Shown here piece by piece: positions 6,451 to 52,312 of a DNA stretch of 57,206 nucleotides. The first letter of the stretch is position 1. Every line of letters starts with the position of its first letter. The notes below the pieces were generated by a model. It was not told where the DNA came from. It searched no databases and saw only the letters and a list, made by a program, of their open reading frames with translations. The position numbers were made by a program, and so were the translations under genes. The DNA lies in the NCBI RefSeq assembly GCF_006538165.1, contig NZ_BDLU01000033.1:1-57206 (forward strand). Reading direction: 5' to 3'. The DNA comes from Komagataeibacter diospyri (GTDB lineage Bacteria; Pseudomonadota; Alphaproteobacteria; Acetobacterales; Acetobacteraceae).

Positions 6451-6533
6451 AAAAGACGTTTTTGGTGAAGCTTTTTCCAAAAAGCCTCACAGAACGCCGC
6501 CTTTTTGAAAAAAGGCGGCACCAGAAAATTTTG
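6451..6533 (+). repeat. Dispersed palindromic intergenic element, copy 1
   Basis: Starts AAAAGACGTTTTTGGTG, has a first imperfect hairpin around AAGCTTTTTCC/AAAAAGCCT, a second strong hairpin GCCGCCTTTTT-GA-AAAAAGGCGGC, and closes with ACCAGAAAATTTTG. The same design recurs at six other intergenic sites in this window. Lies between the GST gene and the ABC-F gene. Confidence 0.75.
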
Positions 6534-6648
6534 TATTTTTTATCAATTGTTTATTTCAAGACGATCTTTCAGTGCCGGTTGGGTCATGGTTTACGCTGAG
6601 CGCACGTTCGTAGTAAGTGCGCGGGCAATCCCATCCGCCCGAGGTTCC

Positions 6649-8271
6649 ATGATTCGTCTTGATAACATCACCAAGCATAACGGCCAGCGCCTGGTCTTTA
6701 TCGAAGCCTCGGCCGCCCTGCAGAAGGGGGAGAAGATCGGTCTGGTCGGCCCCAACGGGGCGGGCAAGACCACGCTGTTCCGCATGATTACGGGACAGGA
6801 CGAACCTGATGAGGGCAATATCCTGATTGATCGCGGGGCCACCATCGGCTTTTTCAGTCAGGATGTCGGTGAAATGGCCGGACGCAGCGCCGTGGCCGAA
6901 GTCATGGATGGCGCGGGCGCTGTGTCCGAAATCGCGGCTGAACTGTCTGAACTGGAAGCGGCCATGGCCGACCCCGAACAGATGGACCAGCTTGACAGCA
7001 TCCTCGAACGCTTTGGCGAGGTACAGGCCCGTTTTGAGGAGCTGGGCGGTTACGCGCTGGACAGCAAGGCGCGCGAGGTGCTGCACGGCCTTGGCTTCAG
7101 TCAGGACATGATGGATGGTGATGTGGGCCGACTGTCGGGCGGGTGGAAAATGCGCGTGGCCCTTGCGCGCATCCTGCTCATGCGGCCTGATGTCATGCTG
7201 CTGGATGAACCGAGCAACCATCTCGACCTTGAAAGCCTGATCTGGCTGGAACAGTTTCTGGCGGGTTATGATGGCGCACTGCTCATGACATCGCATGACC
7301 GGGCTTTCATGAACCGTGTCATCAACAAGGTGATCGAGATTGATGGCGGCAGCCTGACCAGTTTTTCCGGCGATTATGAGTTCTATGAACAGCAGCGCGC
7401 CCAGAACGAAAAACAGCAACAGGCCCAGTTCGACCGCCAGCAGGCGGCACTGGCCAAGGAAATCAGTTTTATCGAACGCTTCAAGGCCCGTGCCTCCCAC
7501 GCGGCACAGGTGCAGAGCCGTGTAAAAAAGCTGGAAAAGATCGATCGCGTCGAACCACCCAAGCGGCGACAGGCGCTGAGTTTCGATTTCCCGCCCGCCC
7601 CCCGATCGGGCGAGGACGTAGTCAAGCTGCGCGGCGTGGACAAACGGTATGGCGAACGCGTCATTTACCACAACCTTGACCTGCTGGTCCGCCGCAGGGA
7701 GCGGTGCTGCATCCTTGGCGTCAATGGCGCTGGCAAGTCCACACTGCTCAAGCTGGTGACAGGCACAACGCAACCCGATGCGGGCACGGTCACACTGGGG
7801 GGCAGCGTGAAGATGGGCTATTTCGCCCAGCACGCCATGGACCTGCTGGATGAAAGCCGCACAGTGTTCGAAACACTGGACGACGCCTTCCCATTGGCCA
7901 GCCAGGGATCGCTGCGCGCCCTTGCGGGCAGCTTCGGCTTTTCAGGGGATGAGGTGGAGAAAAGCTGCCGCGTGCTGTCGGGGGGCGAAAAGGCGCGGCT
8001 GGTCATGGCGCTGATGCTGTTTGACCCGCCCAATTTCCTTGTGCTGGATGAGCCGACCAACCATCTGGACATCGCAACCAAGGAAATGCTCATCAACGCG
8101 CTGGCCCAGTACGAGGGCACGATGCTGTTTGTATCCCATGACCGGCACTTCCTGTCCGCGCTGTCCAACCGGGTGCTGGAACTGACACCTGATGGCATCC
8201 ACCAGTATGATGGCGGCTATAGCGAATATGTCGCCCGCACCGGGCAGGAAGCACCGGGGCTGCATGCCTGA
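6649..8271 (+). CDS. ABC-F family ATP-binding protein
   Basis: A 540-residue soluble protein with two ABC ATPase domains and no membrane segment. Domain 1 has Walker A GPNGAGKTT (about 34-42), signature LSGGWKM (162) and Walker B VMLLDEPSNHLD. Domain 2 has GVNGAGKST (357), LSGGEKA (443) and FLVLDEPTNHLD. Between them is the charged, Gln-rich helical linker (YEQQRAQNEKQQQAQFDRQ) of ABC-F translation factors, which act on the ribosomal E site. The start at 6649 (MIRLDN) has GAGG five bases upstream and matches the family N-terminus; 48 further codons upstream are probably untranslated. Likely Uup/YbiT-like; the exact subfamily is uncertain. Confidence 0.9.
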   Translation: MIRLDNITKHNGQRLVFIEASAALQKGEKIGLVGPNGAGKTTLFRMITGQDEPDEGNILIDRGATIGFFSQDVGEMAGRSAVAEVMDGAGAVSEIAAELSELEAAMADPEQMDQLDSILERFGEVQARFEELGGYALDSKAREVLHGLGFSQDMMDGDVGRLSGGWKMRVALARILLMRPDVMLLDEPSNHLDLESLIWLEQFLAGYDGALLMTSHDRAFMNRVINKVIEIDGGSLTSFSGDYEFYEQQRAQNEKQQQAQFDRQQAALAKEISFIERFKARASHAAQVQSRVKKLEKIDRVEPPKRRQALSFDFPPAPRSGEDVVKLRGVDKRYGERVIYHNLDLLVRRRERCCILGVNGAGKSTLLKLVTGTTQPDAGTVTLGGSVKMGYFAQHAMDLLDESRTVFETLDDAFPLASQGSLRALAGSFGFSGDEVEKSCRVLSGGEKARLVMALMLFDPPNFLVLDEPTNHLDIATKEMLINALAQYEGTMLFVSHDRHFLSALSNRVLELTPDGIHQYDGGYSEYVARTGQEAPGLHA

Positions 8272-8292
8272 TCACGGGCGCGTCACTTGAAA

Positions 8293-8309
8293 ATACCATA
8301 GGGGGGTAT
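8293..8309 (+). promoter_or_regulatory. CsoR-type operator before copper ATPase
   Basis: ATACCATAGGGGGGTAT has perfect ATACC/GGTAT arms and a G-run, the usual shape of CsoR/RcnR-family operators. It lies 33 bases before the GTG start of the copper ATPase, and a CsoR-like repressor is encoded just downstream of that gene, so derepression by Cu(I) is the natural reading. Confidence 0.7.
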
Positions 8310-8341
8310 AAATCAGGATCAATACGCGAAGGAGTGCCACA

Positions 8342-10714
8342 GTGTCCCAGACCCTGAATTTCCCCGTGGGCGGCATGTCATGTTCCGCCTGCGCCGCGCG
8401 TATTGAAAAGATCCTCAACCGTCAGGACGGCGTGCACGCCAGCGTCAATTTCGCCACCCAGCGTGTGCAGGTGGTGCTGGATACATCCGTCGCCACGATC
8501 AATGCGGTTGTCGCCGCCATCCGCAAGGCCGGTTTCACGGTGGATGAAAGCAGCGTGGACCTGGCAATCTCAGGCATGTCGTGCGCCGCCTGTGCCGCAC
8601 GTATTGAAAAGATCCTCAACCGCCTGCCCCTGACGCAGGCCAGCGTAAACCTTGCCACCGAACGGGCACATATCGTGTTCGTGCCCGGCATTGCGGATGG
8701 GGATACCTTCATTGCCCGTATTGAAAAAGCCGGTTTTGGCGCATCACTGGTAAATGACGGCATGCCCGATGACACGCATGCCCGCCGTCTTGCCGCATGG
8801 CGTGCGGAACGTGCCCATTTCGTGCTGCTGCTGATCCTGTCGCTGCCGTTTTTTGCGCAGATGGTTCTGATGCCATTTGGTGCCATGTACATGATGCCCG
8901 GCTGGCTGCAGCTTGTACTGGCGGGCGTGGTACAGTTTTACGGCGCGCGGCACCTGTACCAACGTGCGTGGAATGCCCTGCGCGGTGGCGGTGCGAACAT
9001 GGACGTGCTGGTGGTGATGGGCACCAGTATCGCGTATTTCTTCAGCGCGACTGTCGTAATCGCCCATCTGCACCAGCCGCTGTATTTCGAGGCCAGTGTC
9101 GCGATCATCACCCTGATCTCGCTCGGCAGGCTTATGGAGGCCCGCGCGCGCGACCGGACCAGTGCCGGGCTGGAAAGCCTGCTGAAACTACAGCCCCCGC
9201 TTGCGCATGTCCTGGTCAATGGCGCGATGGTGGATCGTCCTGTGGCGGATGTGCGCGTGGGCGACATATTCGTGGTGCGTCCGGGCGAAAGCGTCCCGGT
9301 GGACGGACTGGTGCGCGAAGGCGCATCCGAAGTCAACGAAGCCATGCTGACGGGTGAAAGCATGCCGACGCTGAAACAGGCAGGAAGCCGGGTTTTCGGT
9401 GGCACCATCAATACCAATGGCATGCTGCGCGCCACCGCTACCGGCGTGGGACATGACACGGCGCTGGCGCATATCGTGAAAATGGTCGAACAGGCGCAGG
9501 GGTCAAAAGCGCACGTGCAGCGACTGGTGGACCGGATATCGAATATCTTCGTGCCCACGGTCATCGCCATTGCACTGGCTACGTTCATGATGGGCTGGCT
9601 GGTGACGGGCAATGCGACATGGAGCCTTGTTTCCGCCGTGTCGGTACTGGTCATCGCCTGCCCCTGCTCGCTGGGACTTGCAACGCCTACGGCCATCATG
9701 GTGGGCACGGGACTGGGCGCGCGCTGTGGCATCCTGTTCCGCAATGCGGATGCACTGGAACGCGCACAGAAACTGACCACCATCATCATGGACAAGACCG
9801 GCACCCTGACCGAAGGCCGTCCCACCGTCAGTGACGTGGTGCCCGGGCCGGGAATTGACACCGGCAGGCTGCTTGCCATCGCCTGTGCGCTGGAACAGGA
9901 TTCCGAACACCCGCTGGCCCGCGCCATTGTCGATCATGCCACGGCGGCGGGCATCTCACCGCTACCGGTAAGCGATTTTCACGCCATGCCCGGCATGGGG
10001 GTGACGGCCATGATTGATGGCGCACCGGCATGCCTTGGCTCCCCCCGTTTCATGGCCGATCATGGCATTGCACCCGATGACACCGTGACCACCCGGCTGG
10101 AACAGGAAGGCAAAACCGTCATCGCCGTTACGGCCAATGGACAGCCGATTGGCCATATTGCCCTGTTGGACCGCCTGCGGCCTGACGCCATACGCACCGT
10201 AAGCGCGCTGAAGGCTGCCGGCATCCGGGTCATGATGCTGACAGGCGACAACCCGCGCAGTGCCGCCATCGTGGCGAAACAGGCGGGCGTGGATGACTTC
10301 ATGGCGGGCGTCCTGCCCGGTGACAAGGCGCAGGCGGTCAGGACCTGCCACGATCAGGGCGGCGTGGTTGGCATGGTGGGTGACGGGATCAATGACGCCC
10401 CGGCACTGGCGGCCGCCGATGTAGGCTTCGCCATTGGCGCGGGAGCAGCCATCGCGCTGGATACGGCGGATATCGTGTTGATGAAAAGCGAGTTGACCAG
10501 CGTGCTGGATGCCATTTCCCTGTCGCGCGCCACACTGTCCAAGATCCGGCAGAACCTGTTTTTCGCTTTCATCTATAATATCCTGGGCCTGCCGCTGGCG
10601 GCGTTCGGGCTGCTCAACCCGATCGTGGCGGGGGCGGCCATGGCCATGAGTTCGGTATCGGTTGTCAGCAATTCCCTGCTGCTCAACCGCTGGAAACCGC
10701 ACAGGCAGACCTGA
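8342..10714 (+). CDS. copA: Cu(+)-exporting P1B-type ATPase
   Basis: A 790-residue inner-membrane pump. Two heavy-metal-associated domains come first (GMSCSACAARIEK near residue 12 and GMSCAACAARIEK near 80). Membrane helices follow, then the actuator TGES loop, the metal-selective CPC motif (residues 440-442), the phosphorylation site D484-KTGT, and the GDGINDAPAL hinge. CPC plus C-terminal N/MSS residues is the Cu(I)/Ag(I) signature. Start is GTG at 8342 with GAAGGAG about eight bases upstream. A CsoR-type operator precedes it and csoR follows, so it is a copper-induced efflux gene. It is distinct from the multicopper oxidase also called CopA at 11.9 kb. Confidence 0.95.
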   Translation: MSQTLNFPVGGMSCSACAARIEKILNRQDGVHASVNFATQRVQVVLDTSVATINAVVAAIRKAGFTVDESSVDLAISGMSCAACAARIEKILNRLPLTQASVNLATERAHIVFVPGIADGDTFIARIEKAGFGASLVNDGMPDDTHARRLAAWRAERAHFVLLLILSLPFFAQMVLMPFGAMYMMPGWLQLVLAGVVQFYGARHLYQRAWNALRGGGANMDVLVVMGTSIAYFFSATVVIAHLHQPLYFEASVAIITLISLGRLMEARARDRTSAGLESLLKLQPPLAHVLVNGAMVDRPVADVRVGDIFVVRPGESVPVDGLVREGASEVNEAMLTGESMPTLKQAGSRVFGGTINTNGMLRATATGVGHDTALAHIVKMVEQAQGSKAHVQRLVDRISNIFVPTVIAIALATFMMGWLVTGNATWSLVSAVSVLVIACPCSLGLATPTAIMVGTGLGARCGILFRNADALERAQKLTTIIMDKTGTLTEGRPTVSDVVPGPGIDTGRLLAIACALEQDSEHPLARAIVDHATAAGISPLPVSDFHAMPGMGVTAMIDGAPACLGSPRFMADHGIAPDDTVTTRLEQEGKTVIAVTANGQPIGHIALLDRLRPDAIRTVSALKAAGIRVMMLTGDNPRSAAIVAKQAGVDDFMAGVLPGDKAQAVRTCHDQGGVVGMVGDGINDAPALAAADVGFAIGAGAAIALDTADIVLMKSELTSVLDAISLSRATLSKIRQNLFFAFIYNILGLPLAAFGLLNPIVAGAAMAMSSVSVVSNSLLLNRWKPHRQT

Positions 10715-10791
10715 TCCAGCGCCGTAGGCATATGTCACGGCTTATGGTACGCTGATATGGACATGACAGCATAAAATCGAAGAAGGCGCGC

Positions 10792-11130
10792 ATGGCTCGA
10801 CAGGACGAACTGGTGACATCGATGGAAGGCTGCGCGCATTGCGCCCCCCCCACCGACAGGAAAGTGGAGCAGCCGCACAAGAAGGCCCTGATCAACCGTG
10901 TCCGCCGGATTGAGGGACAGGTGGGCGGCGTGCTGAACATGATCGAGGACGACCGTTACTGCGTCGACATCCTGACCCAGATTTCAGCGGTAAAATCGGC
11001 ACTTGACGGTGTCGCCATCCAGATCCTGTCCACCCATGCCAAAGGCTGCGTACGTCAGTCCGTCATGGACGATGGCGGGGATGAGGCGATCGAGGAAATG
11101 CTGGGGATCGTGCGCAAACTGATCCGCTGA
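10792..11130 (+). CDS. csoR: CsoR-family copper-sensing repressor
   Basis: A 112-residue all-helical DUF156 repressor (INRVRRIEGQVGGVLNMIEDD). The metal site C57-H82-C86 (RYCVDI; STHAKGC) is the Cu(I) pattern of CsoR. An N-terminal extension carries another CAHC motif (residues 14-17), which is unusual and may bind metal. GAAGG lies about seven bases before the ATG. It sits 77 bases after the copper ATPase on the same strand and presumably represses that gene through the operator at 8293-8309. Confidence 0.88.
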   Translation: MARQDELVTSMEGCAHCAPPTDRKVEQPHKKALINRVRRIEGQVGGVLNMIEDDRYCVDILTQISAVKSALDGVAIQILSTHAKGCVRQSVMDDGGDEAIEEMLGIVRKLIR

Positions 11131-11149
11131 TGGAAAACCGATAAATAAA

Positions 11150-11230
11150 ATAAACGTTTTTGGTGAAACTCTCCTCAAAAAACTTCAGAAAACACTGCTT
11201 TAAAAAAAAGCGGCATCCAAAATCTTTATG
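11150..11230 (+). repeat. Dispersed palindromic intergenic element, copy 2
   Basis: Begins ATAAACGTTTTTGGTGAAAC, contains the CTTCAGAAAAC linker and a decayed second hairpin (CTGCTTTAAAAAAAAGCGG), and ends CATCCAAAATCTTT. Same orientation and layout as copy 1, more diverged. Sits between csoR and the next copper genes. Confidence 0.65.
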
Positions 11231-11410
11231 GTTTGCCGGATGTTGCCTGGGCAGTTTTTTGAAATGCCTCCCGATACGTACACGCACAAAACAGGCACCT
11301 GTCCTGTAACACCTGCGCCAATGCGCGGAAAAACCCTTTTCTTTATGCCCCCCATGGGTATTATGCGGACACGTTTTGTTATGCGACTTGCCTGTGCATG
11401 GGAGCCCTGA

Positions 11411-11794
11411 ATGATCAGGACACATGGCCGGATCTGGATTGGCCTGCTGGCCTGGCTGCTTATGCAGACCGGGCTGCTGGTTGCGTCCTTTCCTGCCATT
11501 GCGCAGACACACGATGCCATGGTGCCCTGCACCGTCACGACCTCCCCCCACTGCATGACACCGGCACAACTGACCCACATGGCGCACATGCACCATAAGG
11601 AAGGCCAGTGCTGCCATGTCCATGTCAGTTCTACTGACATGCCATCCCCACCCGCCACCCTGCTGCCCCCGCAACCCGGGGCTGGCACGCAGTCCTACCT
11701 GCCCCATCCGCAGGCCCGCCTGACTGGCGGTGACTGGCTGCGCCCCTTGCGCCCCCCCAAATCCCGGAACAGCCAGGCGCCATCAGGCGTATAA
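11411..11794 (+). CDS. Small exported Cys/His/Met protein at head of copper oxidase operon
   Basis: 127 residues with a signal peptide (IWIGLLAWLLMQTGLLVASFPAIAQ) and a metal-ligand-rich middle (HMAHMHHKEGQCCHVHV). The C-terminal third is Pro-rich and poorly ordered. GGAG lies seven bases before the ATG. It precedes the multicopper oxidase and copB by 60 bases on the same strand, the position held by small copper-responsive proteins such as CopL in Xanthomonas, but I see no clear sequence match to that family. A role as periplasmic copper binder or regulatory leader peptide is inferred from composition and place only. Confidence 0.65.
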   Translation: MIRTHGRIWIGLLAWLLMQTGLLVASFPAIAQTHDAMVPCTVTTSPHCMTPAQLTHMAHMHHKEGQCCHVHVSSTDMPSPPATLLPPQPGAGTQSYLPHPQARLTGGDWLRPLRPPKSRNSQAPSGV

Positions 11795-11854
11795 TGTGCC
11801 CGCCACCCCGTCGGGATGGTGGGGTGTAACTGCCCTGTTTCCGGAATTTTCCAT

Positions 11855-13741
11855 ATGTCCAATGCCTCTCGCACGCGGGACGGCCTGACACGTCGCCGTT
11901 TCGTCACGGGTATGGGGGCGGGTGGGCTGCTTGCCGCCCTGCCCGTACCCGCTTCCGCCAGCCCCGTCACAACCATCGCTCCGGGCACGGTACCTGCCGC
12001 AGCCAGTGCGACATGGAACCTGCATGTCGGTCGCAGGCGTATCGAAATCGACCGCAAGGTCCTGCACGCCCCCTGTATCGGCGGGAACGTGCCCGGTCCC
12101 GTCCTGCGCTGGCAGGAGGGGGATAACGTGACCCTGAACGTCACCAATACGCTGCGTGATGAGGAGACCTCCATCCACTGGCACGGCATCCGCCTGCCCG
12201 CCAACATGGACGGCGTACCAGGACTGAGCTTTACCGGCATTCCCCCCGGTGAAACCTTTACCTACCGTTTTCCCGTCCAGCAGAGCGGAACCTACTGGTA
12301 CCACAGCCATTCCGGCATGCAGGAAGCGCAGGGTCTGTACGGCGCCATCATCATTGACCCCCGTCGTCCCGACCCGAATGCATGCGTGCGGGATTATGTC
12401 GTCGTACTGTCCGAATGGACCGACGTGTCCCCCATGGACATGATCAATAACCTCAAGATGCAGGATGATTATTATGTTTTCCGGCAACGCACGCTGGCGT
12501 CCCTGCCGCATGAGGCCCGGATGGCGGGCAGCGTCGGCGCGGCGCTGAAGGACCGGCTGCAATGGTCACGCATGCGCATGGCCGCGACCGATATTTCCGA
12601 TGTCACGGGCATCATCTACACCTACCTGCTGAACGGGCATGCGCCGGACATGAACTGGAGCGGCCTGTTTACTCCCGGGGAACGGGTAAGGCTGCGGTTT
12701 GTCAACGCGGCCTCCATGACGTTTTTCGACATACGCATACCCGGTCTGGAAATGCTGGTGGTGCAGGCGGATGGCAATGATGTCGAACCCGTGCCGGTGG
12801 ATGAATTCCGCATCGGTGTAGCCGAAACCTATGACGTAATCATCCAGCCGCGCGACAGCCGGGCCTATACGATCTTTGCCCAGAGCGAGGACCGCACCGG
12901 CTACGCCCGTGGCACGCTGGCCCCGCAGCCCGGCATGACCGGTCCCATCCCCCCCATGGACCCGCGCCCGGTACGCACCATGGTCGACATGGGGATGGGC
13001 GACATGAAACCGGGGCAGGACATGAAAGATATGAAGGGTATGGATATGCCCGGCATGTCGAAAAAAGATGCCCCGATGGACGGCATGGACATGTCAGACA
13101 TGGACAATGGGAACATGGACCACATGGACCACATGGACCACATGGACCACATGGACCACATGGACCACATGGACCACATGGACCACATGGACCATGCCAC
13201 GCCCGCAACGCCGGTTATGGAAGTGGATGATCCCGGTCCTCCTCCCATCAATGTCGAAAACCAGAATGTCGCCAGAATGCCAGTGGACCGTCTGGGCAGC
13301 CCCGGTGACGGGCTGGAAGACAATGGGCGCCGCGTGCTGAATTACCGACAGTTGCGCGCAACCCGCCCCGGTACCGACCCGCGCCCGCCATCGCGCGAAA
13401 TCATCATGCACCTGACCGGCAACATGGAACGCTACATATGGGGCTTCAATGGCCGGAAGTTTTCTGAATCCGGGCCAATCCGCCTGAAACTGGGTGAACG
13501 GGTGCGCTTCACACTCATCAACGATACCATGATGGAACACCCCATCCACCTGCATGGCATGTGGAGCGAACTGGAAAATGGCCAGGGTGACTACCGCCCC
13601 TACAAACATACCCTCATCTCACAACCGGGATCACGGCTGAGCTATCTTGTCACGGTCGATGTGCCGGGCATGTGGGCGTATCACTGCCACCTTATGCTGC
13701 ATATGGAACTGGGCATGTTCCGCACGGTCATCGTGGCATGA
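11855..13741 (+). CDS. copA: Periplasmic multicopper oxidase (CopA/PcoA family) with MDH repeats
   Basis: A 628-residue three-cupredoxin oxidase. A Tat signal ([16 protein letters not shown]) suits folding with copper before export. Type 2/3 copper motifs are IHWHG (H108, H110), [15 protein letters not shown] and the C-terminal HCHLMLH with a Met axial ligand region. Between domains 2 and 3 is a Met/Asp/His-rich insert containing nine tandem Met-Asp-His triplets (13115-13195). It oxidises Cu(I) to less toxic Cu(II) in the periplasm. The start at 11855 is preferred over an upstream ATG (11816) because the Tat signal then lies at the N-terminus. copB overlaps its stop. Confidence 0.93.
13115..13195 (+). 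repeat. Nine tandem 9-bp units encoding Met-Asp-His
   Basis: Eight exact copies of ATGGACCAC followed by ATGGACCAT, in frame inside the multicopper oxidase gene. Near-perfect nucleotide identity, not just amino acid identity, points to recent slippage expansion. Copy number probably varies between strains without shifting the frame. Confidence 0.95.
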
Positions 13742-14562: not shown

Positions 14563-14753
14563 TCCACCTCGGGGTCTACGCAGCGTGACGAAGGGAATTG
14601 TCGCGGCGTATTCCAGCCCCTATATTCTGATTCATGGATGTATCCTGTGTCCGGGAAGGGCCTGATCCTTTCACGTATCAGGATGCAGCCAGGGACCCTT
14701 CATGGTCGTGTAAAACCATACCCATGATTTTTTCCTGATGGAGGATTGGGAAA

Positions 14754-15329
14754 ATGCCTATGTGTAAATCTGTCAGAACAGGCACGCTCCGCGCCCTTGC
14801 CACCGCACTGATTGGGGGTAGCCTTGCCACGCACCCGGCACTGGCCCAGACGCTCACGGTTATTGATGCCAGCGGGCACACGGTGGACATCATTGTTCCC
14901 CGACAGGTCGCAGCGCGCCCCGCATTCGATGCGATCGACCAGATGATGGATCGTGAATTCGCCGCGATGGAAGCACGGCAGCAGCAGATGATGCATCTTA
15001 TGGACCAGACGATGTCCAGCCCGGTTGCCGCCCTGCCTACTCCTGCCCTTGATACCCGTAACGCTCACGGACAGGGCAGCATGTACCAGAGCGTCACGAC
15101 CATATCATGGGGCAGCAATGGCATCCCGTGCAGCCAGACAGTGACCAGCACCAGCAACGGCAATTCTGCCCCCGTCTTTCAGGTTGCAACCCGTGGCGAT
15201 GCCACCTGTACCGCGAGGCTGACCCCCGCCACAAACCGGCAGACACCAGCCACGCAGGCACAGGACCTGACCCCGGCGGTGGATACGACACCGTCCCCTG
15301 CGCGGCGGATTACGTCCCGGCCCTTCTGA
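14754..15329 (+). CDS. Exported protein of unknown function
   Basis: 191 residues, not recognised. A signal peptide (LRALATALIGGSLATHPALAQ) leads to a short beta segment, then a Met/Gln-rich helix (AIDQMMDREFAAMEARQQQMMHLMDQ) that could form a coiled coil or bind Cu(I). A Ser/Thr-rich part with two Cys (PCSQTV; ATCTAR), probably a disulphide, and a low-complexity Thr/Pro tail follow. GGAGG lies about ten bases before the ATG. It lies 191 bases downstream of copB on the same strand. Position and Met content hint at copper handling, but that is only inference. Confidence 0.6.
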   Translation: MPMCKSVRTGTLRALATALIGGSLATHPALAQTLTVIDASGHTVDIIVPRQVAARPAFDAIDQMMDREFAAMEARQQQMMHLMDQTMSSPVAALPTPALDTRNAHGQGSMYQSVTTISWGSNGIPCSQTVTSTSNGNSAPVFQVATRGDATCTARLTPATNRQTPATQAQDLTPAVDTTPSPARRITSRPF

Positions 15330-15330
15330 A

Positions 15331-15414
15331 AATAAAAGTCTTTGGTAAAGCTTTTTTCAAAGAGCTTCAGAAAACGCCGTCTTTTTGAAAAAAGGCGGCG
15401 TCCAGAAGTTTTAT
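15331..15414 (+). repeat. Dispersed palindromic intergenic element, copy 3
   Basis: The clearest copy: AATAAAAGTCTTTGGTAAAGC, a hairpin AAGCTTTTTTCAAAGAGCTT, linker CAGAAAA, a hairpin CGCCGTCTTTTT-GA-AAAAAGGCGGCG, then TCCAGAAGTTTTATT. It starts two bases after the stop codon at 15329 and lies between convergent transcription units, so it may double as a terminator. Confidence 0.8.
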
Positions 15415-15507
15415 TTAGAACAATCCGTGATTGTCCCGATCAGACATCGACAGCATTTCTTCCCATGTGCCGGAATACGTTAATTTATCACCGTGTCATG
15501 AGATCAT

Positions 15508-39320: not shown

Positions 39321-41036
<1,716 letters not shown>

Positions 41037-41042
41037 AATTTC

Positions 41043-41987
41043 TTACATATCCAGTGTCAGGGATGGACTGCGACTGCGTGAACAGCACAGGGCAATATGA
41101 CTACCCTGTTCTTCTTCCGTCAGGACCATATCCCGGTGGTCCCCTTCACCGGACAGCAGCGGCACGACACAGGCACCGCACATGCCCTGTTCGCACGACA
41201 GGGAAACGTCCACCCCCGCCGCCAGCAGGGCGGATGCAATGCTCTGCCCCGCAGGCACGGTCACAGTCTGCCCCGACTGCGCCAGAACCACGTCAAACGG
41301 ACGGTCTGACAGGACATCCGACGGTTCCGTGGGCCGAAAATATTCAGTATGGATCTGGTCCGCCCGCCACCCGGCCGCAATGGCATGAGCATAAACGGCA
41401 TTCATGAAACCATCCGGTCCGCACAGCATGATCGCCGTATCGGCACATGGCCTGTCCAGCGCATCCGGATACCCGTTTTTCAGGCTCTGGCTGAACCGGA
41501 CGCGGTCCCGACAAGGACTTTCACGCAGCATATCCCCAAACGGTGCCTGGCCCGGCACACGGACGTAATAATAAAGCTGCCAGTCGGCACTGTTACGCTG
41601 CAGCCGTACCATCATGGACAGCAGCGGGGTTATACCAATTCCACCCGCGACAAGAATGTAGTGCTGTGCCGGTGGCAGGGAAAACGCATTGCGCGGGCCG
41701 GATATCTGCAACTCCATGCCCTGCCGGGCCTGCGTGCACAGTGAGTCCGATCCGCCACGGGAATCCGCCTCATGCTTGACGCACAATTCATAAGCGGATG
41801 GATCATCAGCCGGTCCACACAGGGAATACTGCCGGATCATGCCTGCAGGCGTCATGACATCAATATGCGCGCCGGGTTCAAAATCAGGCAGGGCGTCATC
41901 ACCGGGGCGGGCAACCAGACGCAGGCGTACACATCCGGCGCCCTCCGGTGCTGCCGCATCAATGATGACAGGAAACAGGGTAGACAT
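41043..41987 (-). CDS. vanB: VanB-type oxygenase reductase component
   Basis: 314 residues in the phthalate-dioxygenase-reductase order: flavin domain (IRQYSLCG), NAD domain (LVAGGIGITPLLSMM; CGPDGFM) and a C-terminal plant-type 2Fe-2S domain (SCEQGMCGACVVPLLSG ... CC). It passes electrons from NADH to the Rieske oxygenase encoded 13 bases upstream. AAGGAA precedes the ATG. VanB (vanillate demethylase) is the closest named relative; other aromatic substrates are possible. Confidence 0.88.
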   Translation of the reverse strand: MSTLFPVIIDAAAPEGAGCVRLRLVARPGDDALPDFEPGAHIDVMTPAGMIRQYSLCGPADDPSAYELCVKHEADSRGGSDSLCTQARQGMELQISGPRNAFSLPPAQHYILVAGGIGITPLLSMMVRLQRNSADWQLYYYVRVPGQAPFGDMLRESPCRDRVRFSQSLKNGYPDALDRPCADTAIMLCGPDGFMNAVYAHAIAAGWRADQIHTEYFRPTEPSDVLSDRPFDVVLAQSGQTVTVPAGQSIASALLAAGVDVSLSCEQGMCGACVVPLLSGEGDHRDMVLTEEEQGSHIALCCSRSRSPSLTLDM

Positions 41988-42000
41988 GACCGGGCTTCCT

Positions 42001-44081: not shown

Positions 44082-44104
44082 GCAGATGGATTCAGGAAAA
44101 AGAC

Positions 44105-44112
44105 GACTGGTC
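44105..44112. promoter_or_regulatory. NemR-like operator core upstream of tetR
   Basis: GACTGGTC within AGACGACTGGTCTAAT, 55 bases before the TetR start. It is nearly identical to the AGACGACCGGTCCAAT copy before the downstream alcohol dehydrogenase, as expected for one repressor controlling both. Confidence 0.6.
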
Positions 44113-44159
44113 TAATTTTTTCATGGACACCCACGCCGCTCCGCCCTATATACACTCCC

Positions 44160-44756: not shown

Positions 44757-44801
44757 TTTCCGGAGCATGGCAGAGTGCCCTATTCCACGATTTTAATAGA
44801 T

Positions 44802-44827
44802 GACCGGTCCATTAAAGACGACCGGTC
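44802..44827. promoter_or_regulatory. Paired NemR-like operators before the YqhD-type gene
   Basis: Two exact GACCGGTC palindromes at 44802-44809 and 44820-44827, 18 bases apart, ending 14 bases before the chosen start codon. E. coli NemR binds a palindrome of similar kind (GACC...GGTC). Together with the single site before the TetR gene they make a three-site set. Confidence 0.65.
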
Positions 44828-44841
44828 CAATAGGTGTGAAA

Positions 44842-45999: not shown

Positions 46000-46016
46000 T
46001 TTCCACTGAAATACCA

Positions 46017-46045
46017 CCGGGATACGGGCACACATCGTATCCCGG
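46017..46045 (+). repeat. Intercistronic hairpin between yqhD-like and aldehyde dehydrogenase genes
   Basis: CCGGGATACG and CGTATCCCGG form a perfect 10-bp stem with a 9-base loop. No T-run follows, so it is more likely a processing or mRNA-stability element, or a partial attenuator, than a full terminator. Confidence 0.55.
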
Positions 46046-46080
46046 GCATAACTGGCTATATTAAGGGACAGATATCCAAA

Positions 46081-47472
46081 ATGGCTTACGCATCAACCAA
46101 TCCCTATACCAACGAAGTTGTTGCAACCTTCGCTGATGCGACGGACGCGGAAGTACAGACGGCCCTGAGCGAAGCGCACGCTGCATTTGAAAGCTGGCGC
46201 GACACATCCTTTGCCGATCGGGCAAAAGTCATGAACGCGGCTGCCGCCATCCTGCGCCGTGACATTGATAAATATGCCCGTCTTGGCACGCTGGAAATGG
46301 GCAAGCTGTTTGATGAGTCAAAGAAGGAAGTCATTCTTTCTGCCGAGATCTTCGAATACTACGCAAACCATGCCGAAGAACTGCTGAAGCCGGAAATACT
46401 GCCGGTTGCCAACGCTGCGGAAGGCAGACCCGTCCTGGTTCACGAACCGCTGGGCATCGTGCTGGCGATCGAGCCGTGGAACTTCCCCTTCTATCAGGTC
46501 GTGCGCATTATCGCGCCGCAGCTTTCAGCCGGTAATGCCGTGCTGCTCAAGCACGCATCCAACCTGCCGCAGTGTGCCGCAGCTTTTGATACACTGATGG
46601 CGGAAGCTGGCCTGCCCAAGGGGCTGTTCCGCAACCTGTATGCGGCGCGCCCCCACACTGCCATGATCCTGAACGACCCGCGCGTATGTGGTGTTGCCCT
46701 GACGGGTTCGGAAGGGGCTGGCACCGTTATTGCCGGCATTGCGGGCAAGGCGCTGAAAAAGGCGACCATGGAACTGGGGGGCGCGGACGCCTTTATCGTT
46801 CTGGATGACGCCGATGTGGAAAAAGCAGCCCGCTGGGCGGTTATCGGCCGCCACTGGAATGCCGGTCAGGTCTGTGTTTCGGCCAAGCGCCTGATCGTGG
46901 CAGATAGCGTTTATGACCAGTTCCTTGCCCTGTACAAGGAAGGTGTTGCGGCCCTGAAGGCGGGCGACCCGATGGACCCGGCCACCACGCTTGCTCCCCT
47001 GTCGTCACAGGCAGCGGCAGACGACCTGCGCGATCAGGTCACGCGGGCGATGGATCTGGGCGCGAAGGTCGAGATCATCGGGGCGCCGGTGCCGGAACAG
47101 GGCGCATTTTTCCAGCCGCTGCTCATGTCGGGGCTTGATGAAAAGAATGCAGCCCGTCACTGGGAATTCTTTGGTCCCGTTACCCAGATATACCGCGCAA
47201 AGGATGAAGCGGACGCCATCCGTATCGCCAATGACTCCCCTTACGGGCTGGGTGGTTCCGTATTTACGAAGGACGAAGCACGCGGTGCACGGGTGGCACG
47301 CGCCATCCGCACGGGCATGGTGTTCATCAACCATCCGCTGTCACCCAAGGCCGACCTGCCGTTCGGTGGCATCAAGAACTCGGGCTATGGCCGTGAACTG
47401 ATCGGCCTTGGCATCAAGGAGTTCATTAACCACAAGCTGATCAACGTGGTGGATATCGACGCGCCGTTCTGA
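46081..47472 (+). CDS. NAD(P)-dependent aldehyde dehydrogenase (succinate-semialdehyde type, YneI/Sad-like)
   Basis: 463 residues with the ALDH signatures: IEPWNFPFYQVVR, LTGSEGAG, catalytic base E231 (MELGGADAF) and nucleophile C265 (GQVCVSAKR). The short N-terminus and the MAYASTNPYTNEVV start match the YneI/Sad branch of succinate-semialdehyde dehydrogenases. Together with the YqhD-like reductase it gives both a reductive and an oxidative route for aldehyde removal. Confidence 0.9.
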   Translation: MAYASTNPYTNEVVATFADATDAEVQTALSEAHAAFESWRDTSFADRAKVMNAAAAILRRDIDKYARLGTLEMGKLFDESKKEVILSAEIFEYYANHAEELLKPEILPVANAAEGRPVLVHEPLGIVLAIEPWNFPFYQVVRIIAPQLSAGNAVLLKHASNLPQCAAAFDTLMAEAGLPKGLFRNLYAARPHTAMILNDPRVCGVALTGSEGAGTVIAGIAGKALKKATMELGGADAFIVLDDADVEKAARWAVIGRHWNAGQVCVSAKRLIVADSVYDQFLALYKEGVAALKAGDPMDPATTLAPLSSQAAADDLRDQVTRAMDLGAKVEIIGAPVPEQGAFFQPLLMSGLDEKNAARHWEFFGPVTQIYRAKDEADAIRIANDSPYGLGGSVFTKDEARGARVARAIRTGMVFINHPLSPKADLPFGGIKNSGYGRELIGLGIKEFINHKLINVVDIDAPF

Positions 47473-47523
47473 ACCAGACAGTTGTGGATAATGACGGGAT
47501 GACGTCCCGTTATGGACCGCAAT

Positions 47524-47565
47524 AATAAATCCCCCTTGTGACATCTGTCACAAGGGGGATTTATT
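47524..47565. terminator. Long perfect hairpin, bidirectional terminator
   Basis: A perfect 20-bp inverted repeat (47524-47543 with 47546-47565) whose stem reads CCCCCTTGTGACA against TGTCACAAGGGGG, flanked by A/T-rich AATAAAT...ATTTATT arms that supply a T-rich tail on both strands. It lies between the aldehyde dehydrogenase gene and the convergent esterase gene. Confidence 0.8.
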
Positions 47566-47602
47566 AACTATTATTCCAGCCCCCATTACCTGAAAAAATA
47601 AT

Positions 47603-47684
47603 AAAAGTTTTTTGGATACCATCTTTTTTCAAAAAGGCGGCATTCCCCGAATATTAAAAAAAACTGCACCAAAAACTTTTACGA
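47603..47684 (-). repeat. Dispersed palindromic intergenic element, copy 5 (inverted)
   Basis: Read on the minus strand it begins AAAAGTTTTTGGTGCAG, includes GCCGCCTTTTTGAAAAAAG and ends CCAAAAAACTTTTAT. This is the only copy in the opposite orientation. Outer arms AAAAGTTTTT...AAAAACTTTT are well preserved; the inner hairpins are damaged. Confidence 0.65.
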
Positions 47685-47699
47685 TTTACAGGCGGCCCC

Positions 47700-49310
47700 T
47701 TAATGGGCATCGGGTAACACGCAGGCAAAGCTGGCTGCATCATCCATGTTGCCATGACCATCATACCGCGCAACTTTCGGCCATGCGCATAGTGGCCGGG
47801 TACGCACGACCTGCCCATTGTCCACGCGTGCCGCAATGACCTGTTCTGGCGCCTGTCTGTGGCTGACCCAGTCATCAATCGCCCCCAGCTTGCTGAATGT
47901 GTCACACGCAGTCCCACCATAACAGTGCCCCATGCCCGGAATGGTAATCAGGCGCACCGCATCCGCGCCTGCGGGTCCGGCATTGCGCTGGACGGACTGG
48001 TAATATCCAGCCAGCTGTTCAGGGTTATGTCCGTCGTTCCAGCCAATATACATGAGCAGCCTGCCGCCATGACGGAAGAAAGGCGTCAGGTTGTCATCCA
48101 CATGCAGCAGTGGACCGACCCTGCGCGCGGCTTCCTGTATGTCCGTATCCCATTTCAGCGTTGTCCAGTCCCAGTCCGGGTTCTGGAAAGCCGCATATCT
48201 GAACAGGTCGAGAGCTACGGGGAATGCTTTGCCGTCGGCTGAAAAACCGTCCTCGCTCCCTTTCGCCGCGCCGGGGAAGATGACCTGGTGCGTCTGCGGG
48301 TCAAGCGGCCCCTGATAGATGTTATTGGCGGCCTGTACCTCATTCGCGGTCAGGCATTTTGCTGTATTCTTCCCCTTGCACTGCAACTGTTCAGGCGTGA
48401 AGGTGCATTTGTCCGGCTCCTCCAGAAACCCCTGTTTCTTGCCTACGGGTGATGCGCAGGCATTCATGACTGCCGCGTTCAGCAGGTGAAATTTGTCATG
48501 CGATACGCGCAGGGCCGGATTATGGTAACTCATCCACCCGGCCCATAGCTGTTCGGCATTGAAGTTCACGATCGGATTGGGCGGTGCACCGGCCACGATC
48601 CCGTCATAGTCCTCGGGATAGCGTTTGGCCTCGATCAGCCCCTCAAGCCCCCCCAGTGAGCAGCCAATCCAGTAGGCATGCACTGCCTTCCGGCCATAGA
48701 AATTCCGGATCAGCGCCTTTGCCATCACCGTCATCAGGTGGTCGGCACGATAGGCGTAATCAATCATCTTTTCCGGATGACCCAGCGTAAAACGTCCCCC
48801 CTGCCCTTCGGGGGTGGAACTGTCATGCCCGGTATCGGTACTGGCCACGGCATAGCCCTCGGCTATCCCCGTCGCCATGCCGTAATACATGAGCGAACCG
48901 GCCCAGCCGAAATTGCCAACCCCCAGCAGCTTGCCATTCCAGCCTTTGAGCGGCAGCCAGACTTCCGTACGGATATGGGAATCCGGAGACGGGTGCAGTG
49001 TAATGGCCACGCGGCAGAAAGCGGGATTGGGAGCCTGTGTCGGATGACCGGCCACGTTCATGCCGGGTGCTGACATGATGCGGGTCAACTGGTCCTGCGG
49101 TGGCTGCCAGCGTCCGTCGGGTACCGTCTCCACCGTGGTGAAGGTCGCATCCGGCAGGGCACGGCGGGCAAGATCGGCGCAGCCTGTAGCATGGGCATCC
49201 GCCGTATCCAGCATCGCAAACGGTACTGCAAGGGTTGTCCCTGCCACCAGCAGGAAAAACAGGCGCGACAGGCCGCATGAAGATTTCGAAAGTGGCGCAG
49301 GACGGGACAT
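47700..49310 (-). CDS. Tannase/feruloyl esterase family protein
   Basis: 536 residues from ATG 49310 (AGGAAA seven bases upstream). Signal peptide (LSRLFFLLVAGTTLAVPFAML), then an alpha/beta hydrolase with the family's Ser in GCSLGG (WIGCSLGGLEG) and a final His next to Cys (MGHCYGG), forming the CS-D-HC catalytic arrangement in which a disulphide joins the Ser and His regions. It hydrolyses ester-linked phenolic acids such as ferulate or gallate outside the cytoplasm. The open frame extends much further upstream, but that part has no signal peptide and is not family-like. Could supply substrates to the VanAB-type system at 41-43 kb. Confidence 0.88.
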   Translation of the reverse strand: MSRPAPLSKSSCGLSRLFFLLVAGTTLAVPFAMLDTADAHATGCADLARRALPDATFTTVETVPDGRWQPPQDQLTRIMSAPGMNVAGHPTQAPNPAFCRVAITLHPSPDSHIRTEVWLPLKGWNGKLLGVGNFGWAGSLMYYGMATGIAEGYAVASTDTGHDSSTPEGQGGRFTLGHPEKMIDYAYRADHLMTVMAKALIRNFYGRKAVHAYWIGCSLGGLEGLIEAKRYPEDYDGIVAGAPPNPIVNFNAEQLWAGWMSYHNPALRVSHDKFHLLNAAVMNACASPVGKKQGFLEEPDKCTFTPEQLQCKGKNTAKCLTANEVQAANNIYQGPLDPQTHQVIFPGAAKGSEDGFSADGKAFPVALDLFRYAAFQNPDWDWTTLKWDTDIQEAARRVGPLLHVDDNLTPFFRHGGRLLMYIGWNDGHNPEQLAGYYQSVQRNAGPAGADAVRLITIPGMGHCYGGTACDTFSKLGAIDDWVSHRQAPEQVIAARVDNGQVVRTRPLCAWPKVARYDGHGNMDDAASFACVLPDAH

Positions 49311-49509
49311 GACAGTTTCCTGACGGGTCATTGCAACATAATCGGGGTCAGTACCGGAACACCCCCATGGACAGGGCGCCGACATGACGACAGGCGGCAT
49401 TCTGGACAGGAAATACGCAAAAGGGAAAGACCTTGATCCCATGACTGGGGGCGGGCAGTGTTCGCATACACGATGACAATTCCGCGCAATGGCAAAAGTT
49501 AGGGGACTG

Positions 49510-50709
49510 ATGCAAAAGATTTCCTTGGTGGCGGGTGGACTGTTTCTGGCCATACTACCCGTCATGGCCCGCACGGTTCCGGCCCGGGCGGCAACGGTTT
49601 CAGCCAGCACGGAAGAAGATACGGCCGCCCGCCAGACACAGGCGGTCGTCACCGCAGCGCAGTCCTTTCTCGGGCTATTCGATGCAGCCAGCCGTGCGAA
49701 ATTACAGTTTCCCTTTGTTACACAAAAATCAGGCACACTTGCCCGTTTCCGACGCAGCGCCCCCGACCAGCCCGTCCAGCCGGTAACGGACGTGCAGGTC
49801 AGCGCACCCACGGCACGCGGGCCGGGCATGGGACCACCCGGCGGTTTCACAGGCGAACGTTATGGCACATCGGTGTGGTCCAACTTTCCGGTCAGTGACG
49901 TGCTACGACCAGGACTGCGGATGGGTCAGTTGACACCTGCCCAGCGTACCGCCGCACTACACCTGTTGCAGACAGTGTTAAGCCCGAAAGGCTACCAGAA
50001 GGTAATGGACATAATGGGAGGCGATCAGGCGCTGGCAGATGCCGGCACGCCGTTCGCGTCCGGCAGAGCCGTCTACACCATCGCGATTTTTGGTGAACCG
50101 GGCATGACCAGCCCATGGATGGTGCAGTTTGGCGGCCACCATCTGGGACTTAACATTGTTATTGACGGCATGCATGGCGTCATGACGCCGACCCTGACGG
50201 GGGCACAACCTGCAATCTATCAGGCGGATGGAAAGAGCGTACGCGTTCTGGCAGGTGAAAATGACCGGGCCTTTGCCCTGCTGGATGCCTTTGACGCAAA
50301 ACAGCGCAAACAGGCCATCCTTTCATATAAGGTGGAGGATCTGGTGCAGGGACCGGGACATGAAGGTGAAACCCTCATTCCCGAAGGAATAAAAGGCTCT
50401 GCGCTGACCACGACACAGAAAGACCTGCTGATGGGGGTAATCGGAGAATGGGCAGGTATCATAAACGATGCCTATGCCGTCCCGCGCCTGAAGGAAATCA
50501 GGGACGATCTGGACAATACATGGTTTGCATGGAGCGGCCCCACCACGCATGCGCCCGGCCGCAACGGATCATCCTATTACCGTATTCAGGGACCGCGACT
50601 GCTGATCGAGTTTTCACCGCAGGGTGTGGGCGACGACCCGACCATGCATGTGCATACCGTCTATCGTGACCCCACCAACGACTATGGCACCCGGTATACC
50701 ATGCCATGA
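49510..50709 (+). CDS. DUF3500 exported protein
   Basis: About 399 residues from ATG 49510 (AGGGG five bases upstream; an ATG at 49489 is less likely). A signal peptide (ISLVAGGLFLAILPVMARTVPARAA) is followed by the DUF3500 sequence (WSNFPVSDVLRPGLRMGQLTPAQRTAALHLL; WMVQFGGHHLGLNIVI; HVHTVYRDPTNDYG). Conserved His/Asp residues hint at a metal site, but the family's function is not known to me. It overlaps the next gene as ATGA. Confidence 0.83.
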   Translation: MQKISLVAGGLFLAILPVMARTVPARAATVSASTEEDTAARQTQAVVTAAQSFLGLFDAASRAKLQFPFVTQKSGTLARFRRSAPDQPVQPVTDVQVSAPTARGPGMGPPGGFTGERYGTSVWSNFPVSDVLRPGLRMGQLTPAQRTAALHLLQTVLSPKGYQKVMDIMGGDQALADAGTPFASGRAVYTIAIFGEPGMTSPWMVQFGGHHLGLNIVIDGMHGVMTPTLTGAQPAIYQADGKSVRVLAGENDRAFALLDAFDAKQRKQAILSYKVEDLVQGPGHEGETLIPEGIKGSALTTTQKDLLMGVIGEWAGIINDAYAVPRLKEIRDDLDNTWFAWSGPTTHAPGRNGSSYYRIQGPRLLIEFSPQGVGDDPTMHVHTVYRDPTNDYGTRYTMP

Positions 50710-51251
50710 ATTACGCCATGACCATGTTGCTGGCAGCAGCGGGGCTTGCAACAACCTGCAGTCCGGCAGGTGCGCACCGTCTGGATGAATACCTGCAGGC
50801 CACGGTCATTGATATCACGCGGCAGGACATTGCCGTGACCCTGCGGCTTACGCCCGGCGCGGATGTGGCATACGGTGTCATTCACCAGATTGACAGCAAT
50901 GGCGATGGCATCCTGTCACCACAGGAACAGCAGGCTTACGGTGCATGGATCAGGCAGGGATTATCATTTTCCATTAACGGTAACCCGGTTTCCCTCACCA
51001 CCGGTGGGGCTGCGTTTCCATCTGTCACGACCCTACGGACGGGAAGTGGCGTTATCAGCCTGTACTTTCATATAACGACCAGCCTGACACCGGGATCATA
51101 TCGGCTGGTCTATACCAATCATGGTAGTGACCCGGATATGGTCTATCTGGTCAACGGATTGCTGCCCCATGACCGGGCCATTCATATCCAGCGACAGCAG
51201 CGTTCAGTCAATCAGTCCACTTACGAACTGGATTTCACGGTGGAACCGTAA
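50706..51251 (+). CDS. Small exported protein like the N-terminal domain of HupE/UreJ proteins
   Basis: 181 residues: a signal peptide (MTMLLAAAGLATTCSPAGA), then HRLDEYLQATVIDITRQDIAVTLRLTPG and an EF-hand-like loop (DSNGDGILSPQEQ). The periplasmic part of HupE/UreJ-type membrane proteins begins this way, but here the membrane half is absent, so it is a free-standing domain. Coupled by ATGA overlap to the DUF3500 gene, with which it probably works. The calcium or other metal ligand role is inferred from the DxNxDG loop. Confidence 0.75.
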   Translation: MNYAMTMLLAAAGLATTCSPAGAHRLDEYLQATVIDITRQDIAVTLRLTPGADVAYGVIHQIDSNGDGILSPQEQQAYGAWIRQGLSFSINGNPVSLTTGGAAFPSVTTLRTGSGVISLYFHITTSLTPGSYRLVYTNHGSDPDMVYLVNGLLPHDRAIHIQRQQRSVNQSTYELDFTVEP

Positions 51252-51310
51252 TCTGCAGCCCATGCACCCGGAAACTGTTCCGAAAAGCCTGCCTTTGAAA
51301 CATCCTTAAA

Positions 51311-51391
51311 AAATAAAGATTTTTTTGGGCGAAGCTTTTTCACAAACATTCAGAAGGTACCATTCAAAAAATGGCGCTACTAAAAAATTTC
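51311..51391 (+). repeat. Dispersed palindromic intergenic element, copy 6
   Basis: AAATAAAGATTTTTTTGGGCGAAGC, the remains of a first hairpin GAAGCTTTTTCACAAACATTC, linker AGAAGGTA, a short second hairpin CCATTCAAAAAATGG, then CGCTACTAAAAAATTT. Clearly related to copies 1 and 3 but diverged. Lies 5' of the DUF72 gene. Confidence 0.6.
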
Positions 51392-51487
51392 ATATATCAA
51401 TAAATGACTTTCGACAAAATCAGGCTTCAAAACGACATGGTCTTGTAATTTTCTTGCGTTATTATCCGATTACAGGAGAAATAGTTC

Positions 51488-52228
51488 ATGTCCATTCGCG
51501 TCGGTGTCGCTGGCTGGTCAATCCCCTCCGCACTTGCCAGCCAATTTCCCACGGTCGGCACGCATCTGGAGCGCTATGGCGCGCGTTTCCCCGCGGTCGA
51601 GATCAACAGCAGTTTCTATCGGCCGCACCAACGCACGACCTACGCGCGTTGGGCCGCAAGCGTGCCGCCCGCGTTCCGCTTTTCCGTCAAACTGCCCAAA
51701 ACAATCACGCATGAACGCCGTCTGATCGACTGCCATGCGCTTATTGAACGCTTTGCCGAAGAAACCGGTGGTCTGGGTGACAAACGCGGTCCCATACTGG
51801 TCCAGCTTCCCCCAAGCTTTACCTATCCCGGCGAAAGCGCCGAACATTTCTTCCATGACCTGAAAACTACAATCACTGGCCCCATCGTTGTGGAACCAAG
51901 GCATGCCAGCTGGTTCATGCCAGAAATCAGTCATATGTTGGAAAGGCTGCAGATAGCGCGGGTTGCGGCAGATCCGGCCAAGCCATTCCTTGCGGCACAG
52001 CCCGGAGGCTGGAACGGCCTGGCCTATTTTCGGCTGCATGGTTCCCCCCGCGTTTATGAATCAGCGTATGCAAGGGAAACCATTGAAGCCCAAGCAAAAA
52101 CCGTCACGTCGCTTGCCATGCGCGGCATTGATGTCTGGACGATTTATGACAATACCACCTATGGCGCCGCCACCCAGAACGCGTTTGAGCTTATGGAAAT
52201 CATTGAGAATATGACTGGCTGTCTTTGA
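51488..52228 (+). CDS. DUF72 (YecE-like) family protein
   Basis: 246 residues, TIM-barrel DUF72 family: VGVAGWSIPSAL, FPAVEINSSFYRPHQRTTYARWA, FRFSVKLPKTITHERRL, VVEPRHASWF, YFRLHGSPRVYESAY and WTIYDNTTYGAAT. AGGAG lies upstream of the ATG. No defined reaction is known to me for the family. It stands alone between two copies of the dispersed palindromic element. Confidence 0.9.
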   Translation: MSIRVGVAGWSIPSALASQFPTVGTHLERYGARFPAVEINSSFYRPHQRTTYARWAASVPPAFRFSVKLPKTITHERRLIDCHALIERFAEETGGLGDKRGPILVQLPPSFTYPGESAEHFFHDLKTTITGPIVVEPRHASWFMPEISHMLERLQIARVAADPAKPFLAAQPGGWNGLAYFRLHGSPRVYESAYARETIEAQAKTVTSLAMRGIDVWTIYDNTTYGAATQNAFELMEIIENMTGCL

Positions 52229-52239
52229 AAGACCACGAA

Positions 52240-52312
52240 AATTAAAATATTCCTTTAAAGTTCCAGGAAACGCACCTAAAAAAGGCAGCACCCACAAACT
52301 TATTTATACTTT
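52240..52312 (+). repeat. Dispersed palindromic intergenic element, copy 7 (degenerate)
   Basis: AATTAAAATATTCCTTTAAAG, then TCCAGGAAACGCACC, a short TAAAAAAGGCAGC and CACCCACAAACTTATTTA. It keeps the order of landmarks of the other copies but has lost most pairing. It starts about 12 bases after the DUF72 gene. Confidence 0.45.

Follow-up and report, generated by a model that had tools for sequence, protein, structure and literature searches.

The window analysed here, a stretch of 57,206 nucleotides from contig NZ_BDLU01000033.1 of Komagataeibacter diospyri, contains seven dispersed palindromic repeats. These repeats are eroded copies of a 162-bp miniature inverted-repeat transposable element (MITE), whose core is predicted to form a three-way junction and probably terminates transcription in both directions at gene ends. 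The mobility of the element is shown by genome comparison. The original prediction, made from the letters of the window, had listed a source of terminators among several possible roles; position and predicted structure fit that role, and from these we infer termination itself.

The repeats as copies of a mobile element

All seven sites in the window carry related sequence, including those at 51311 and 52240, which are both badly worn. Each copy was aligned with six full-length elements taken from other genomes, and its best alignment exceeded 200 base-composition shuffles in all seven cases: the copy at 52240 reached 89.6 against a shuffle maximum of 61.1, and the other six reached 116-191 against 54-63. 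The statement that seven copies are present therefore stands, with two very worn members. A covariance model (R2) built from 34 copies scores five of the seven strongly, with 54.8-91.9 bits (6449, 11147, 15329, 40943 and, on the minus strand, 47597), and the copy at 51312 weakly (26.7 bits, E 1e-4), while no match is found at 52240 with filters off, even at E 10. The copies at 6449, 11147, 15329 and 40943 are themselves rows of the R2 alignment and their scores are therefore biased upward, and those at 47597, 51312 and 52240 lie outside it.

The whole unit is a 162-bp element with the ends GAGACTGTTTGAAAA and TTTTCAAACAGTCTC. The repeat first noticed, put at 75-90 bp, is only the core of this unit of about 160 bp. 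Four of the six reference copies printed are 162 bp long and two are 161 bp. Searching 397 genomes of the family with a pattern that requires both ends yields 22 full-length copies, spread over 8 of these genomes, and nothing with the backwards control pattern. Full-length copies are present in 6 of the 14 same-genus genomes drawn, and the pattern finds none in the K. diospyri genome. Exact 13-bp repeats occur at both ends in the 22 copies, and the 15-bp GAGACTGTTTGAAAA in most of 16 full-length loci. The triplets flanking the element are identical at 12 of these 16 loci (TTA, TAA or ATA), corresponding to a 3-bp target duplication, the loci being partly non-independent, as L031 and L256 share a flank and so do L256 and L259. 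In addition, GACTGTTTGAAAA is present in the flanks of some copies, mostly 37-41 nt upstream, and its complement mostly ends 27-29 nt downstream.

Comparison of empty sites, as originally proposed, gives one clean case. Genome G013 carries a copy with TAA on both sides, and in G011 the same place is empty, with a 3-nt overlap between the two matches; this TAA serves as the stop codon of the called upstream gene. In G005, a copy adjoins the right half of an older copy, whose K. diospyri counterpart is uninterrupted. Nesting of the new copy in the older one is only likely, because the left half of the older copy is partly missing in G005. This genome contains 93 end-motif hits at up to one mismatch, compared with 3 to 14 in five other genomes, so recent activity of the element seems to differ among species. 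The terminal inverted repeats, the 3-bp target duplications and the empty site together identify the element as a MITE, a non-autonomous transposon, and a unit of about 162 bp is too short to encode a transposase.

Read inward, the left end of the element (for example in L264) has early stops in two frames (GAG ACT GTT TGA; GAC TGT TTG AAA AGT TAG), and an insertion close to the 3' end of a gene would thus soon end its reading frame. The copies in L031 (Novacetimonas hansenii plasmid p1), L256 and L259 are chained by shared flanks (L031 with L256, and L256 with L259), as if replicons had recombined at the element. An IS630-family element lies right next to the copy in L031. Near three contig ends of the K. 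diospyri genome (L252, L253 and L254), a sequence starting GGGCCTGTTGGGAATT, likely another insertion sequence (IS), interrupts copies of the element. A different short unit with the long inverted ends GAGACTGTTTCAAAAGCTCTCTGCTG is located at L231:14456-14593 (Acetobacter conturbans) and seems to be another MITE with related tips.

An IS5-family transposase presumably moves the element, and an 883-bp IS of this family (NCBIfam NF033580) at L305 is the candidate source. Its ends, GAGCCTGTTTGGAAAATC and GAGCCTGTTTGAAAAATC, agree with the end repeat of the element in 14 of 15 bases on the right and 13 of 15 on the left, and it encodes an unbroken 274-aa transposase (NF033580, 228 bits against a cut-off of 110). 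A relative in L301 is 91% identical and has a split reading frame. Both are flanked by TNA-type triplets, TAA on both sides in L301 and TAA and TTA in L305. The IS shares nearly the same end repeats and the same type of triplet with the element, whereas it encodes a transposase and has an unlike inner sequence. For the transposase with matching terminal repeats that the original prediction proposed to look for, this IS is a candidate. The 30 IS5-like loci sampled through PF13586 all have other ends, and no IS is located between the end-motif pairs in the loci examined. In L304 and L307, GTGACTGTTTGAAAA ends lie 2.7 and 3.6 kb apart; the stretches L304:1535-4239 and L307:502-4129 are bounded by GTGACTGTTTGAAAAGT.CC ends, and the one in L304 holds small open reading frames (ORFs) and an IS5-family transposase gene.

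The alternative of a repetitive extragenic palindrome or bacterial interspersed mosaic element (REP/BIME), moved by a REP-associated tyrosine transposase (RAYT, Y1), is hardly credible. Copy number, palindromes and 3' location are REP-like, but the element possesses long end repeats with a 3-bp duplication, which are not known as REP features. Moreover, the K. diospyri genome has 0 matches to Y1_Tnp (PF01797), whereas the control search was positive in 5 of 14 genomes, which rules out this mechanism for the genome. The MITE half of the suggested REP/MITE-like character is thus borne out and the REP half is not. Likeness to REP/BIME sequences lies in the high-copy intergenic palindromes with a suggested termination role (PMC2817692, PMC3733652), and the missing RAYT sets the element apart. 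CGTC repeats are missing in Acetobacteraceae (PMC3733652), and PMC4686929 names repeat classes in general only. MITEAba12 of Acinetobacter resembles the element in being short and non-coding, in possessing terminal inverted repeats, target duplications and stops in six frames, and in its occurrence in related species. It generates 9-bp duplications and contains no predicted Rho-independent terminator, whereas the present element has 3-bp TTA/TAA duplications, hundreds of copies, a three-hairpin core and placement at gene ends (PMC6382973). No description of the element was found in the open-licence literature.

The genome scan with the covariance model found many further copies, in K. diospyri and in the genus. 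The K. diospyri genome contains at least 149 copies (149 of 150 scored candidates match, from 1538 first-look candidates). Contig C32, covered over 440 of its 443.7 kb, holds 28 distinct copies, or about 240 per genome by simple scaling; C32 was picked as the longest contig seen in the hit list and was therefore known beforehand to hold copies. All 19 Komagataeibacter genomes examined match, with 25 to at least 108 copies each, as do 1 of 5 genomes from other genera of the family and 0 of 16 from other families. A broader sample of 160 genomes from the family gives matches at E 1e-6 in 19 of them, across 12 of 102 genera. Near priA, hits are present in Komagataeibacter, Novacetimonas, Gluconobacter, Acetobacter musti and a record labelled Gluconacetobacter entanii, with weak hits in two unclassified metagenome-assembled genomes (L233, L236); the priA region of the Gluconacetobacter loci L177-L179, L181-L186 and L190 gives no match. 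The K. diospyri PriA shares 96% identity with its Komagataeibacter europaeus counterpart. No phage record was returned when one copy served as query for a distant search, so a phage origin is not supported.

Predicted fold of the core and its placement at gene ends

The core is composed of P1, formed by the closing arms, and the hairpins P2 and P3. For a near-consensus copy, the predicted fold is a three-way junction on each strand, with -37.8 and -35.5 kcal/mol (z about -6), and a U-rich stretch is located behind P1 on either strand. Across 34 copies, 88.7% of the cells pair, compared with at most 64.7% in slid versions, and the observed double-change cells and covariation score are reached by 5 and 6 of 500 shuffles, respectively. 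A larger set of 157 copies comprises 148 of the 149 genome copies and 9 further ones, leaving out the weak L040:2946 and L018:340, the copy at 52240 and, for gene context, C9:4758. In 154 of these (three are below 60% identity), 81 double changes are compensated and 33 are not; in 300 shuffles, compensated changes average 46 and never exceed 66. Paired positions thus change with more compensation than in shuffles, in line with the original prediction. In a test of which strand acts, single changes to G-U outnumber those to A-C overall (314 vs 238), whereas the order is reversed in P3 (74 vs 107), and unpaired positions are also skewed. No Rfam family reaches its gathering score in the window, and three relatives' loci give only sub-threshold matches, microRNA models being the best; the statement that no named family fits is upheld.

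Among the 157 copies, 94 lie between convergent genes and 5 between divergent ones, 35 in reverse and 14 in forward orientation between co-directional genes, and 9 have a neighbour missing. The usual place just after a stop codon, already recognised in the window, holds generally: 129 of the 157 have a facing stop no more than 100 nt away, and three are flagged inside a called gene. Genes were called with a simple codon model, whose stops are reliable and starts are not. Since the 157-copy sample is centred on copies, a count over the whole of contig C32 is fairer. There, copies occupy 15 of 43 convergent gaps, 8 of 283 co-directional gaps and 1 of 43 divergent gaps (Fisher p 5e-10). In addition, TAA stops are commoner beside copies (63 of 164 vs 54 of 252, p 2e-4).

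A purely selfish MITE would account for this position by TTA/TAA targets at stops and in AT-rich spacers together with purging elsewhere, its hairpins having no host function. We consider this reading unlikely. In its favour, the element is mobile, the simple terminator scan misses its copies, and TTA/TAA triplets on C32 are denser in intergenic DNA (1317 in 70 kb, compared with 1947 in 370 kb of coding sequence and 93 at stops). Moreover, 6 of 15 young full-length copies abut a stop codon. On the other hand, the core outlasts the outer ends: with up to three mismatches allowed, the left end motif remains in 27 of 157 copies and the right one in 22, compared with 9 and 3 for the respective controls, although copies with a recognisable core are favoured by the search. 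The excess of compensated changes over shuffles also argues against pure selfishness. Target choice and removal of harmful insertions both likely contribute to placement.

A post-transcriptional element, acting as an mRNA 3' stabiliser or RNase processing site in the manner of REP stem-loops, is less likely still. Two strong hairpins just behind stops could block 3' exonucleases, and no T-run directly follows P3 on the plus strand. However, the convergent preference and the U-rich stretch behind P1 on both strands point to two-way termination, and a stabiliser leaves the co-directional orientation bias (35 to 14, p 0.004) unexplained. Under the terminator reading, the reverse orientation, in which P3 is followed by GUUCUUU, may terminate better.

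Several observations weigh against a mobile element with a terminator core. Matching flanks are missing in 4 of the 16 full-length copies, and none of the loci searched contains an IS with the exact end repeat. For the 34 copies, two of five covariation measures are unremarkable: of 500 shuffles, 56 reach the observed number of doubly changed pairs and 39 reach the other measure; as the copies share ancestry, all such shuffle counts overstate the signal and are not a probability. Several window copies are predicted to fold poorly. A simple hairpin-plus-T-run scan flags no window copy in the two stretches scanned; its loop limit makes it blind to a branched terminator, and P3 alone, on the plus strand, is without an adjacent T-run. 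Ordinary terminators are absent at a similar rate from convergent gaps with the element (11 of 14) and without it (7 of 12), and 25 of 82 convergent copies share their gap with an ordinary terminator (12 of the 94, with gaps over 600 nt, being excluded). Finally, young full-length copies are already at gene ends, 8 of 15 being convergent, so target choice plus selection against harm could explain the position without function. In place of the T-run directly behind a G+C-rich stem that marks a classic intrinsic terminator, the U-rich stretch here follows the outer stem P1. Mutual exclusion with ordinary terminators was not seen either, these being no rarer beside copies.

The favoured explanation, a MITE with a terminator core, would operate as follows. 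TTA/TAA targets would steer many insertions to gene stops. In the single case that was verified, the insertion duplicated the TAA stop codon, and the gene thereby retains a stop. Transcripts entering from either direction would form the hairpins P2 and P3, with P1 as the closing stem and the U-rich stretch behind it, and the polymerase would be released. The outer arms would then likely decay and the core be retained. The uptake-sequence terminators of Neisseria and Pasteurellaceae are likewise a genome-wide repeat serving as a gene-end hairpin, whereas their hairpin is made from paired short uptake signals and the present one is a transposon-carried three-way junction (PMC1852404). If this explanation is true, a mobile element sets transcript ends, and roughly one in three convergent gene pairs, judged by 15 of 43 on one contig, would have a terminator carried by a transposon, which is branched and symmetric and overlooked by a simple terminator scan. 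It would also offer a testable case of low-harm transposon spread, in which stop codons are targeted and duplicated and a terminator is brought along.

Inversion and relatives in other genera

The site behind priA carries the element in one direction in K. diospyri and seven relatives, and in the opposite direction in four. Otherwise, two loci contain remnants, L174 is rearranged, the element is absent in L168, nine Gluconacetobacter loci are without it, and the contig of L180 ends before the site. Some of these differences could reflect replacement by a new insertion. A second site was followed in 16 Gluconobacter loci: in seven, including the truncated L208, the element points one way and in three the opposite way, three are without it, and in three more the site itself was not found. 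Flanks and a Gluconobacter-specific interior are kept in both orientations. The three reversed loci fall in two places on the priA tree, so the interior was inverted in place at least twice. The flipped part is bounded by inverted repeats of about 16 bp, and no recombinase is implicated. In chloroplast genomes, small hairpin inversions occur behind genes, where the interior between short inverted repeats flips between species. The present flips are likewise in place and near gene 3' ends, but they involve a segment with two hairpins that is part of a bacterial MITE. In some lineages the stretch enclosed by the P1 arms has inverted in place, a flip that a symmetric terminator would tolerate. 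If the favoured explanation is true, the element would also be a natural example in which to study how DNA inverts in place between short repeats.

Copies with the same plan are present in other genera. Of 30 such loci, 4 were unmapped and 2 of the remaining 26 had no recognisable arms. The resulting 24 copies come from six genomes of five other genera, and in each the stems of the two hairpins run without a break for at least 8 bp (G-T allowed). Their lower stems vary among most of these genera (P2 GTTC, shared by three, CTTCTTTG, GCAGC and TGTGGCCCC, compared with GAAGC in Komagataeibacter), and within the single genome G172, both sides of P2 change from one copy to the next. The T/A tops are constant, and so are the closing arms AAAGTTTTT(T)GG, the constancy of the arms being partly due to selection, because the arms were used to pick copies. 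Seventeen of the 24 are within 40 nt of a facing stop and 4 are convergent. The Komagataeibacter end repeat, at up to three mismatches, was not found beside ten of these copies (L334-L343) in 300-nt flanks, the sole match being inside the hairpin of L338; the junction therefore exists there without the ends of this MITE. Both the three-arm plan with other stems at gene ends in five other genera and the copy that 10 of 16 Gluconobacter loci have in common at one site speak against a purely selfish element.

These relatives raise a wider reading, which we hold tentatively, that the element represents an Acetobacteraceae-wide class of three-way-junction bidirectional terminators with a fixed shape (AAAGTTTTTGG closing arms and two T5/A5-topped hairpins), genus-replaced stems and in-place inversion, and that it is MITE-borne and TAA-aimed in Komagataeibacter and its kin. 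If this holds, a single transposition brings a fresh stop codon and a terminator, rewiring transcript ends genome-wide.

The copies in the window

Copy 1 (6409..6567, core 6449-6539, plus strand) is nearly full-length, with 131 of 152 aligned bases identical to the full-length L264 over reference positions 3-161 of 162, and scores 91.9 bits with R2. Sequence and alignment place a remnant of the left terminal inverted repeat, GCCTGTTTGAAAC, at 6409..6421. The P1 5' arm (6455..6465) and the P1 3' arm followed by a T-rich stretch (6521..6532) are assigned from sequence and model structure, and the hairpins P2 (6466..6489) and P3 (GCCGCCTTTTTGAAAAAAGGCGGC, 6496..6519) from sequence, fold and model, all on the plus strand.

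Four further copies are clear. Copy 2 (11104..11270, core 11147-11234, plus strand; 118/149 identical to L261, 55.5 bits) lies behind a RicR-like gene (10792-11130). Copy 3 (15304..15446, core 15329-15419, plus strand; 106/129 identical to L264, 84.9 bits) is located at the stop of ORF 14754-15329, and copy 4 (40916..41058, core 40943-41033, plus strand; 111/140 identical to L264, 71.0 bits) behind the minus-strand gene 41043-41987. Copy 5 (47593..47701, core 47597-47685, minus strand; 93/108 identical to L257, 54.8 bits) is positioned between the convergent genes 46081-47472(+) and 47700-49850(-). Beside it, at 47523-47566, a perfect 21-bp inverted repeat, TAATAAATCCCCCTTGTGACA, lies behind the stop of gene 46081-47472(+) and looks like an ordinary terminator or palindrome.

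The two remaining copies are both on the plus strand. Copy 6 (51271..51426, core 51312-51397; 113/145 identical to L261) is worn, with the left end repeat still recognisable, and copy 7 (52183..52339; 106/135 identical to L266) is very worn. The common folding plan ascribed to all seven is no longer formed in these two (DNA fold z of -1.1 at 51311 and -0.5 at 52240). The description of all copies as intergenic is nearly right, the outer arms of some overlapping the 3' ends of called genes. Elsewhere in the window, a 9-bp tandem repeat, ACATGGACC, is located at 13104-13203 within the copper-resistance multicopper oxidase gene 11816-13741.

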